DNA of 64,000 bases from the NCBI RefSeq assembly GCF_001652265.1, contig NZ_LWBS01000220.1:62001-126000 (forward strand), written 5' to 3'. This stretch comes from Rhizobium leguminosarum. Lineage in GTDB: Bacteria > Pseudomonadota > Alphaproteobacteria > Rhizobiales > Rhizobiaceae. The notes beneath the pieces are model-generated. The model was not told the origin of the DNA. It ran no database searches and was given only the letters and a program-made list of their open reading frames with translations. A program made the position numbers and the translations under genes. Positions 61,913-64,000 of the stretch are shown piece after piece (position 1 is the stretch's first letter; every line of letters begins with the position of its first letter).

Positions 61913-63682
61913 TCAGGCCTTGCCGGCCTTCACGTCGAGCACACGGTTGGCGGCCGAGACGATCGCTTCCAGCGATGCCGCGACGATGTTGGTATTGATG
62001 CCGGCGCCGAAGAGTTTGCCGCCGGGATAGGAGGTCTCGACATAGGAGATCGCCGCCGCGTTCGAGCCATGCTGGAGCGAATGCTCGGAATAGTCCTCGA
62101 CCGACATCTCGATGCCGAGATAATGCGACAGCGCGTTGATGAAGCCGTCGATCGGGCCGTTGCCGCGCCCTTCGATGCGCTTGATCTCCCCATTGTCGGT
62201 GATCTCGGCTGCGACGATCCGCTGGCCCTTGTGCTCAGTGTCAGGATAGGTGTGATGGTCGACGAAGCGCAGGCGGCCTTCCGGCTGCGTCACGTAGCGC
62301 TCGATGAAGCGGTCGTAGATGCGCCGGGACGGAAGCTCCTTGCCCTCTACGTCGGTGATGCGCTGGATCTCTTCGCGGAATTCCACCTGCAGGTTGCGCG
62401 GCAGGTTCAGCCCGTAATCCTGCTGCAGGATATAGGCGATGCCGCCCTTGCCGGACTGAGAGTTGATGCGGATGATCGCCTCGTAGGAACGACCGACATC
62501 GCGCGGATCAATCGGCAGGTACGGCACTTCCCACACGGGATGGTTGGCAACCTGTGCTGCCTTCATACCCTTGTTGATCGCATCCTGATGCGAGCCGGAG
62601 AAGGCCGTATAGACCAGTTCGCCGACATAGGGATGACGCTCGCCGATCACCATCTGGTTCGAATATTCGAACACTTCCTTGATGCGTTCGATATTCGAGC
62701 AATCGATCTCGGGATCGACGCCTTGCGTGAACATGTTCAGCGCCATCGTCACCATGTCGACATTGCCGGTGCGCTCGCCATTGCCGAACAGCGTGCCTTC
62801 GACGCGGTCGGCACCTGCGAGCAGTGCCAGTTCGGCAGCGGCAATGCCGGTGCCGCGATCGTTATGCGGATGCAGGGAAACGATCAGGTTCTCGCGATTG
62901 TCGAGGTTGCGGCACATCCATTCGATCTGGTCGGCATAGACGTTCGGCGTCGCCATCTCGACGGTGGATGGCAGGTTGATGATCAGCTTGTTATCGGGCG
63001 TCGGCTTGACGACCTCAATGACGGCGTTGCAGATCTCCAGCGCCACATCGAGTTCCGTGCCGGTAAAGCTCTCCGGCGAATATTCAAAACGGTAACCGCC
63101 GCCCGCCTTCGTGGCCATATCGGTGATCATCTTGGCGGCATCGACGGCGATCTGCTTGATGCCCTGCACATCCTTGGCGAAGACGACGCGGCGCTGCAAC
63201 TCGCTGGTGGAATTGTAGAAATGCACGATCGGCCGATTTGCGCCTTCCAGTGCTTCGAAGGTGCGGGTGATGAGTTCCGGGCGGCACTGCACCAACACCT
63301 GCAGCGAGACGTCATCGGGCACATTGCCCTCCTCCACGCACCAGCGGGCAAAGTCGAAATCGGTCTGCGAAGCCGAGGGGAAACCGATCTCGATTTCCTT
63401 GAAGCCCATCTCGATCAGCAGGTGGAACATCCGCGCCTTGCGATCGTGGCCCATCGGGTCGACGAGCGCCTGGTTGCCGTCGCGCAGGTCGACCGAGCAC
63501 CAGACCGGTGCCTTGGTAATGGTCTTCGTCGGCCATGTGCGGTCGGGAATATTCACCTGCGGGTAGGCTCGGTATTTTACCGCGGCGTCGGGCATGCCTT
63601 TTGCAAGGGCCGTCTTGTTTGTGGAGGCCATGTTATTCACGGAGGCCATCTTATCCTCGGAGGATTGCGTTTTCGCGTCCAT
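61913..63682 (-). CDS. leuA: 2-isopropylmalate synthase, long form
   Basis: A 589-residue LeuA, the first committed enzyme of leucine synthesis. The catalytic TIM barrel covers about 50-370: CSVDLRDGNQALVDP has the metal-binding Asp and catalytic Arg, and SLHPHNDRGTGIAAAEL is the second HMGL signature. The C-terminal domain (about 440-589) is the LeuA dimer type that binds leucine for feedback inhibition. The ATG at 63682 follows GAGGAG. The N-terminal 35 residues are an extra Met/Ser/Asn/Lys-rich extension with a short duplication (MASVNN, MASTNK). A leucine-rich leader ORF lies upstream. Confidence 0.95.
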   Translation of the reverse strand: MDAKTQSSEDKMASVNNMASTNKTALAKGMPDAAVKYRAYPQVNIPDRTWPTKTITKAPVWCSVDLRDGNQALVDPMGHDRKARMFHLLIEMGFKEIEIGFPSASQTDFDFARWCVEEGNVPDDVSLQVLVQCRPELITRTFEALEGANRPIVHFYNSTSELQRRVVFAKDVQGIKQIAVDAAKMITDMATKAGGGYRFEYSPESFTGTELDVALEICNAVIEVVKPTPDNKLIINLPSTVEMATPNVYADQIEWMCRNLDNRENLIVSLHPHNDRGTGIAAAELALLAGADRVEGTLFGNGERTGNVDMVTMALNMFTQGVDPEIDCSNIERIKEVFEYSNQMVIGERHPYVGELVYTAFSGSHQDAINKGMKAAQVANHPVWEVPYLPIDPRDVGRSYEAIIRINSQSGKGGIAYILQQDYGLNLPRNLQVEFREEIQRITDVEGKELPSRRIYDRFIERYVTQPEGRLRFVDHHTYPDTEHKGQRIVAAEITDNGEIKRIEGRGNGPIDGFINALSHYLGIEMSVEDYSEHSLQHGSNAAAISYVETSYPGGKLFGAGINTNIVAASLEAIVSAANRVLDVKAGKA

Positions 63683-63794
63683 TGTATCGTCTCCTCGTCC
63701 CGGCATTTGCCCGCTCTTAGCCGATCACGTCGGGCTTGGCGATAAACAAATGCGGACCCTGTCGGTCGTTAGGTGAATTTTGAAAGTGAGTCGC

Positions 63795-63838
63795 GAGGAG
63801 CGATGGCCGGGCGGGCTTTCGGCCGCCGGGCGCTCCTC
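63795..63838 (-). promoter_or_regulatory. Attenuator-like hairpin in the leuA leader
   Basis: On the minus strand a perfect GAGGAGCG/CGCTCCTC pair (63838-63831 and 63802-63795) encloses a second GC-rich stem of about eight paired bases with a GAAA loop. The 5' arm overlaps the stop of the leucine-rich leader ORF. The leader's Leu codons (CTTCTTCTCCTC, 63878-63867) contain the same CTCCTC as the 3' arm, so they can compete for GAGGAG. No clear T tract follows, so termination is not proved. Confidence 0.6.
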
Positions 63839-63962
63839 AAAGGACCCGGCAACCGCGCGTAAGGCCGAGGAGAAGAAGCGAGGTCAAGGCGCGCGTATTG
63901 TCACGCAGGGCGATACGGCCGCGTGCAATCGAGTCAGAAATTCTGGCGCCAGTGGTCTTCAT
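63837..63962 (-). CDS. leuL: Leucine-rich leader peptide of leuA
   Basis: A 41-codon ORF beginning MKTTGARISDSIARGRIALR and ending DNTRALTSLLLLGLTRGCRVL then TGA. Codons 29-32 are four consecutive Leu codons (CTT CTT CTC CTC, 63878-63867), with further Leu at 19, 26, 34 and 41. It lies 154 bases before leuA, with a strong hairpin starting at its stop, the plan of a leucine attenuator. A TTGCCA-17-TATAAG promoter ends seven bases before its ATG, so the transcript would begin at or next to the AUG with no Shine-Dalgarno. The symbol is by analogy. Confidence 0.72.
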   Translation of the reverse strand: MKTTGARISDSIARGRIALRDNTRALTSLLLLGLTRGCRVL

Positions 63963-63969
63963 GACCGCG

Positions 63970-63998
63970 CTTATAGCCTCGGGCGGTGATGCTGGCAA
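63970..63998 (-). promoter_or_regulatory. Sigma-70 promoter of the leuA leader
   Basis: On the minus strand, TTGCCA (63998-63993) and TATAAG (63975-63970) are separated by 17 bases. The -10 is followed by CGCGGTC and then the leader ATG (63962), so transcription should start within a base or two of the A of ATG. Confidence 0.75.
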
Positions 63999-64000
63999 GT

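Follow-up and report, generated by a model that had tools for sequence, protein, structure and literature searches.

A conserved, leaderless-looking probable leucine attenuator upstream of leuA in Rhizobium leguminosarum and its relatives

A question at the leuA locus of Rhizobium leguminosarum is whether the short, leucine-rich reading frame that precedes the gene acts as an attenuator and, if so, whether its peptide is read from an mRNA that begins at the start codon itself. We analysed a window of 64,000 nucleotides (the whole stretch of DNA studied), in which all features described here lie on the reverse strand. The leader ORF, referred to here as leuL (63962–63837; ATG at 63962, stop codon TGA at 63839–63837), has 41 codons, the sequence MKTTGARISDSIARGRIALRDNTRALTSLLLLGLTRGCRVL and the ending SLLLLGLTRGCRVL. 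It includes four Leu codons in a row (CTT CTT CTC CTC, 63878–63867), then GGC and a fifth Leu codon (CTT, 63863–63861), which together form the putative regulatory run (63861–63878). A GC-rich hairpin (63838–63795) sits between the leader ORF and leuA (61913–63682), which encodes a long-type 2-isopropylmalate synthase of 589 amino acids (NCBIfam match) with 96% identity to LeuA of Rhizobium aethiopicum in the best segment. The start of leuA was placed at 63682 rather than at 63706 because the Shine–Dalgarno sequence GAGGAG (63691–63696) favours it; the in-frame ATG at 63706 would give a longer LeuA (61913–63706). The window sequence thus bears out the order of a 41-codon ORF with four Leu codons, a hairpin and leuA given in a preliminary description of this DNA and, as expected of an attenuator, the leader ORF carries several successive codons for the amino acid of the pathway and lies directly before a biosynthetic gene. 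The leader peptide is 98% identical to part of an R. leguminosarum hypothetical protein, and it has 25 protein matches in databases, for which the names given are all ‘hypothetical’ or ‘uncharacterized’. Judged by its sequence, the element is real and conserved: a leucine attenuator of a known kind that looks leaderless and has an unusual termination step lacking a U-tract. It looks like a conserved switch that would turn leuA on when leucine is scarce, and we consider it probable that leuA is controlled in cis by a ribosome-mediated leucine attenuator with a leader peptide read from a leaderless mRNA.

Conservation was examined upstream of LeuA relatives, of which at least 592 were found and the best 80 taken; one of these (L078) had no upstream DNA. 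All 79 relatives that have upstream sequence carry, ahead of leuA, a leader with the Leu run and a tail that is likewise conserved (RGCRV, GDRRV/A or a variant of these). This count describes presence and is no blind test because the ORF was chosen by its Leu run and tail motif. The preliminary description had made its case depend on alignment of the leader across relatives and on conservation of the Leu codons, and the run was kept throughout. The genera include Rhizobium, Sinorhizobium/Ensifer, Agrobacterium, Shinella, Martelella, Hoeflea, Mesorhizobium, Phyllobacterium, Brucella/Ochrobactrum, Nitratireductor, Aurantimonas, Bartonella, Pleomorphomonas and others, and the leader is 37–41 codons long in 72 of the 80 rows of the alignment. 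Since the leader is present in 79 of 79 relatives and its promoter geometry (see below) is enriched compared with shuffled sequences and other ATGs, the sequences indicate that its occurrence at leuA is not due to chance.

The leader has no match in Rfam, Pfam or NCBIfam. Rfam covariance models gave 0 matches at E values up to 10 in window positions 63400–64000 and, at gathering scores, found two tRNAs only and no leader family in 20 loci. A model search of the genome itself returned one strong site (E = 3.9e-17; next best, 1.18). Searches at the class and order levels matched 6 of 289 and 18 of 297 genomes, respectively, at E = 0.01 or better, with the R. leguminosarum genome counted in each; at most 14 candidates were scored per genome, so these counts are lower bounds, and they were not taken as evidence of absence. 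Three of the five class-level matches outside the genome itself adjoin a long-type LeuA (L087–L089) and two do not (L090 and L091).

The RNA downstream of the Leu run can form two conserved hairpins. The first is a putative antiterminator helix of 11 bp, in which segment 2 (CGGTTGCCGGG, 63855–63845) pairs with segment 3 (CCCGGCGGCCG, 63830–63820); RNAalifold recovers it unguided. Across the alignment (80 rows, 74 distinct), 99.9% of 814 cells are paired and 30 are changed on both sides, and none of 500 shuffles was as high on either measure or reached the covariation score. Measures that count pairs and pair types were reached by 43 and 29 of the 500 shuffles, respectively, and slid versions of the helix drop to 20–56% paired. 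These shuffle counts are not probabilities because the rows are related. The second hairpin, in which segment 3 is reused as part of the 5′ side (3:4, 63838–63795; outer stem GAGGAGCG/CGCTCCTC, with AGGAGC at 63837–63832 and GCTCCT at 63801–63796), has 96.1% of 438 outer-stem cells paired and 10 changed on both sides, neither of which was matched by any of 500 shuffles. Its pair and type counts were reached by 153 and 414 of the 500 shuffles and slid stems match or beat the true stem on three of five measures, so the support for the outer stem consists mainly of the pairing itself. When 3:4 was folded alone, the downstream arm took up five or more segment-3 bases in 78 of the 79 rows analysed (L073, with missing columns, was left out), which means that both folds compete for segment 3. 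The mean number of segment-3 bases paired in this fold is 8.1, compared with 6.3 for shuffled linkers, and the mean energy is −22.2 compared with −18.8 kcal/mol, although the energy is unexceptional in many single rows and the outer stem is missing from the minimum free energy (MFE) fold of several divergent rows. In the window, the two competing folds differ little in stability (−25.3 and −26.9 kcal/mol). The leader therefore has two mutually exclusive conserved hairpins with compensatory changes, though not on every measure. Folds of the whole leader are unremarkable compared with shuffles (z = −1.58; z = −1.47 for a 111-nt piece). Segment 1 (CTCGGC, 63864–63869) may pair with GCCGGG (63850–63845) in a weak 1:2 hairpin (−9.6 kcal/mol, z = −0.36). 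This candidate protector hairpin is 87.6% paired, no better than shuffles, and has no covariation support.

These features of the sequence (the ORF, its promoter geometry and conservation, both helices, their mutual exclusion and the absence of a U-tract) suggest how the switch may work. Transcription would begin at or next to the A of the ATG at 63962, and a ribosome would start there without a Shine–Dalgarno sequence. If charged tRNA-Leu were scarce, the ribosome would stall in CTT CTT CTC CTC GGC CTT; given the usual size of the ribosome footprint, segment 2 would remain free whichever of the first four Leu codons occupied the A site. Segment 2 would then pair with segment 3, and with the 2:3 antiterminator formed transcription would run on into leuA. 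If leucine were plentiful, the ribosome would reach the stop codon and cover segment 2, segment 3 would join the hairpin at 63838–63795, and transcription would stop before leuA to yield a leader RNA of about 168 nt. This last step would probably use Rho or a U-tract-free terminator.

The first 8 nt after the 3:4 hairpin contain a mean of 1.85 U, and the longest T run in the following 12 nt is at most 2 in 66 of 79 rows, 3 in 12 rows and 5 in 1 row. A terminator scan of 63600–64000 found no terminator-like site. There is thus no terminator hairpin with a U-tract, and the leu leader fails one defining feature of a classical Rho-independent attenuator; the trp terminator in the same genome ends in the U-tract TTTTTTGTTTT. 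The attenuator proposed in the preliminary description is supported by the conserved Leu codons, the cognate gene and the competing conserved hairpins, but attenuation of transcription also requires a terminator, and hardly any row has a U-tract (78 of 79 have a T run of at most 3). C is more frequent than G over the 60 nt that follow 3:4 in 72 of 78 rows, whereas an upstream control shows such an excess in 18 of 79; this is a weak hint at Rho. Because there is no U-tract and sequestration of the leuA Shine–Dalgarno sequence by the Leu run is unsupported (see below), we infer the termination step, for which a Rho-dependent or U-tract-free mode is the likeliest. A candidate second promoter, TCGCCA-17-TAAGAG (63714–63742), lies between the attenuator and leuA. 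In 20 of the 22 rows with a recognisable block (at least 10 of 13 matches; the block of the window is one base longer and is not among the 22), TA occurs exactly 17 nt after the TCGnnA part. If this promoter is real, part of leuA transcription would bypass the attenuator. The block is partly a dyad (TTTGC-N4-GCAAA) in some relatives.

The missing U-tract also fits translational control, in which leader translation would set access to the leuA ribosome-binding site, as published for the actinobacterial LEU element (PMC1262725). The Leu run UCUCCUCG can pair with CGAGGAGA at the leuA Shine–Dalgarno sequence, and pairing of this region also appears in the full-length MFE fold. However, shuffled Leu runs pair with the spacer up to leuA almost as well as the true run does (mean −16.0 versus −17.2); only 9 of 79 rows have at most 5 of 100 shuffled Leu runs that pair as well, and sequestration by the Leu run, as suggested by the full-length fold, was rejected. 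Moreover, about 100 nt separate the second hairpin from the Shine–Dalgarno sequence in the window, and the rows differ widely in their distance to leuA. We therefore regard translational control as rather improbable.

The location of AGGAGC within the loop of the 2:3 hairpin, together with the conservation of both helices, raises a different alternative, an H-type pseudoknot in which AGGAGC pairs with GCTCCT while 2:3 stays in place, and the compact fold blocks RNA polymerase or binds a protein. A pseudoknot is also predicted for the actinobacterial leuA element (PMC1262725). Such a structure seems quite unlikely here, given that the downstream arm of 3:4, folded alone, takes up at least five segment-3 bases in 78 of 79 rows (mean of 8.1 versus 6.3 with shuffled linkers), which fits mutually exclusive hairpins.

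The preliminary description proposed a promoter TTGCCA-17-TATAAG that sets +1 within about a base of the ATG, and this geometry is present: the −35 hexamer TTGCCA (63993–63998) is followed after 17 nt by the −10 hexamer TATAAG (63970–63975), which ends 7 nt before the ATG. From the position of this promoter, the normal expectation is that +1 falls on the A of the leader ATG or about one base from it. In a restricted scan (−40 to −33 from the leader ATG, plausible spacings and a reward for TTG), the best hexamer starts with TTG and lies at −34 to −38 in 80 of 80 rows, with a spacer of 17 nt in 70 of 80. A fairer score counted matches to the promoter consensus TTGACA/TATAAT, with the −10 element ending 4–9 nt before the ATG and the best in-frame ATG taken. 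Of the 80 leader rows, 47 scored 8 of 12 or higher, whereas this level was reached by 5.7% of identically treated shuffles and by 13 of 779 further ATGs from these regions, which were scored one by one. The pattern extends to genomes listed as of the same class but not the same order. At the class level, 99 of 142 genomes had a LeuA match, and the 29 best loci besides that of the window were taken; in 20 of these, an in-frame Leu leader contains a CTT followed by A (the feature by which they were chosen), and 19 of the 20 have a usable ATG. Among these leaders of long-type leuA, 13 of 19 reach 8 of 12, whereas 4.9% of shuffles do so, as do 7 of 151 other ATGs. Leaders of short-type leuA reach it in only 4 of 19 cases (versus 8 of 188 other ATGs), and on this basis the leaderless geometry appears to go mainly with long-type leuA. 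An SD-like tetramer (GGAG, GAGG or AGGA) precedes the leader ATG in 1 of 80 rows, the window not among them. The leader thus resembles trpL both in a promoter that would set +1 on the leader ATG and in its lack of a Shine–Dalgarno sequence.

The trpL leader of the same genome, used as a positive control, shows the same geometry (TTGCGC-17-TAACAA-7-ATG, read by eye). This gene (MIKSLNIAVWWWVR, then a stop codon; L183, G000:C220) lies upstream of the window, about 8.7 kb upstream of the leuA start. A longer mRNA that carries the leader behind a 5′ untranslated region, the promoter match being accidental, would be in keeping with a strict sigma-70 scan of 63600–64000, which found no promoter match, and with the 33 of 80 leader rows and 6 of 19 class-level rows that score below 8 of 12. 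The enrichment of the geometry in two sets, the 79 of 80 rows with no SD-like tetramer and the identical geometry at trpL argue against it, and we consider such an mRNA quite unlikely. As the geometry is enriched in both sets and the same at trpL, and as trpL of S. meliloti is leaderless by experiment, leaderless translation of the leu leader is well supported, if indirectly. The claim of a leaderless leader in the preliminary description gains from a geometry that is common to the alignment and to trpL of the same genome.

The codon usage of the leader is distinctive. CTT accounts for 63.5% of the 395 Leu codons in the leaders, compared with 13.5% in 30 long ORFs of the window; the latter were selected for length and GC3 > 0.70, a choice that works somewhat against CTT. 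An in-frame CTT followed by A occurs within the leader in 79 of 80 rows (63861–63863 in the window) and is seen again in the short-type leuA leaders of other Rhizobiales families. No explanation for this near-invariant CUU-A was found in the literature seen, including the accessible part of PMC11805395. The N-terminal codons of the leader, compared in rows of the commonest length alone (so that three of nine Mesorhizobium rows are left out), have dN/dS values of 0.30 among 15 Rhizobium rows, 0.44, 0.54 and 0.61 in three further groups and 0.83 in a three-row group; the N-terminal part differs strongly from genus to genus. These values are compatible with a selected peptide and with RNA constraint alike. 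That trans action of the peptide (41 residues) or of the leader RNA (about 168 nt), rather than cis control, keeps the element is very improbable: the lower dN/dS values and the precedent of rnTrpL and peTrpL (PMC7298713) speak for it, and the strong divergence between genera, the value of 0.83 and the fact that these values do not separate RNA constraint from peptide constraint speak against it.

Related leaders occur at other leuA genes. In four Rhizobium genomes (L119–L122), a second leuA, about 50% identical, has a related Leu leader and hairpin ahead of it; these are four of five loci taken from six secondary matches in a search of the genus, the fifth (L123) having no LeuA in the stretch. 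The second-leuA leader is followed by a run of 5–6 T in three of the four cases, and leaderless geometry was not found at these four leaders (scores of 4, 4 and 5, and one without an ATG). Of 22 loci with a short-type leuA gene from other Rhizobiales families (L161–L182), 20 have a Leu leader that contains CTT followed by A; the leaders were picked by that feature, and a look without the requirement showed the same tails. They end in LLLxxP and a stop codon, or similar, and many have the stop codon inside CCCCTGAG, which is able to pair with the downstream CTCAGGGG. Rfam gave no match near these leaders in the seven loci scanned.

A broader interpretation, which we put forward tentatively and consider rather unlikely, is that an old family of leaderless leucine attenuators governs long-type leuA of Alphaproteobacteria beyond the order of the window, with a near-invariant CUU-A sensor. 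It would lack a U-tract in Rhizobiaceae and their kin and be Rho-dependent there, and every round would set free a leaderless mRNA, about 168 nt long, with a selected peptide, which may act in trans. A leaderless leu attenuator as such would make leaderless translation a recurrent design of alphaproteobacterial amino-acid attenuators and no peculiarity of trpL. The leu leader raises the testable question of how an attenuator works without a U-tract. It is also a conserved small ORF, without a function in databases, before a biosynthetic gene of agriculturally important symbionts.

Leader peptides with Leu codons before leu genes are known from the enterobacterial leu leader. Campylobacter jejuni LeuL is of the same sort (PMC3847290; LeuL also in PMC11955535), and small ORFs were sought in that species with an upstream ribosome-binding site (PMC3847290); no Rfam match links the Rhizobium leader to these systems. 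The actinobacterial LEU element has a Leu-codon leader before leuA without other attenuator elements, its Leu codons pair with the leuA Shine–Dalgarno sequence and a pseudoknot is predicted (PMC1262725). Comparable pairing with the Shine–Dalgarno sequence is not supported for the leader described here. In Corynebacterium, a leuA leader peptide with four Leu codons is described (PMC4046766 and PMC5784534; the peptide also in PMC3890552). The transcription start site of the Corynebacterium diphtheriae ilvB leader is at the start codon, and that of its leuA leader could not be assigned (PMC5784534). These leaders belong to another phylum and encode another peptide, and are likened to the leu leader here apart from their hairpins. 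The short-type leuA leaders share the Leu run and the CTT followed by A, but differ in a tail that ends in Pro, in a hairpin that is formed in many by CCCCTGAG and CTCAGGGG, and in a far lower frequency of leaderless geometry (4 of 19 versus 8 of 188 other ATGs).

Ribosome profiling of S. meliloti reports a small ORF before leuC, and leuA is absent from the main text of that paper (PMC10117765); the main text of a paper on transcription start sites in S. meliloti mentions neither leuA nor leu (PMC3616915). Attenuation of ilv is reported in Caulobacter (PMC4117421), and an alphaproteobacterial ilvB leader is credited to Vitreschak et al. 2004 (PMC1273637). Among the literature matches listed, which cover openly accessible text, there was no description of an alphaproteobacterial leuA leader. 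Vitreschak et al. 2004 is said to treat alphaproteobacterial attenuators. The suggestion in the preliminary description that the leader may be undescribed is therefore consistent with the literature searched as far as this leader is concerned, but attenuators with leaderless leaders are a known kind, represented by trpL of S. meliloti and ilvB of Corynebacterium.

The nearest likeness is to the trp attenuator of S. meliloti, which also has a leaderless leader ORF with a regulatory codon run before its cognate gene, and in which the 5′ end of rnTrpL coincides with the ATG of trpL (PMC7298713 and PMC10117765). The two differ in leader length (41 codons for leu compared with 14 for trp) and, in the R. 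leguminosarum genome, in the U-tract, which is present at trp and absent at leu while the promoter-to-ATG geometry is the same. Trans action is reported for rnTrpL and peTrpL of S. meliloti (PMC7298713); by analogy, it is a possibility for the leu leader.
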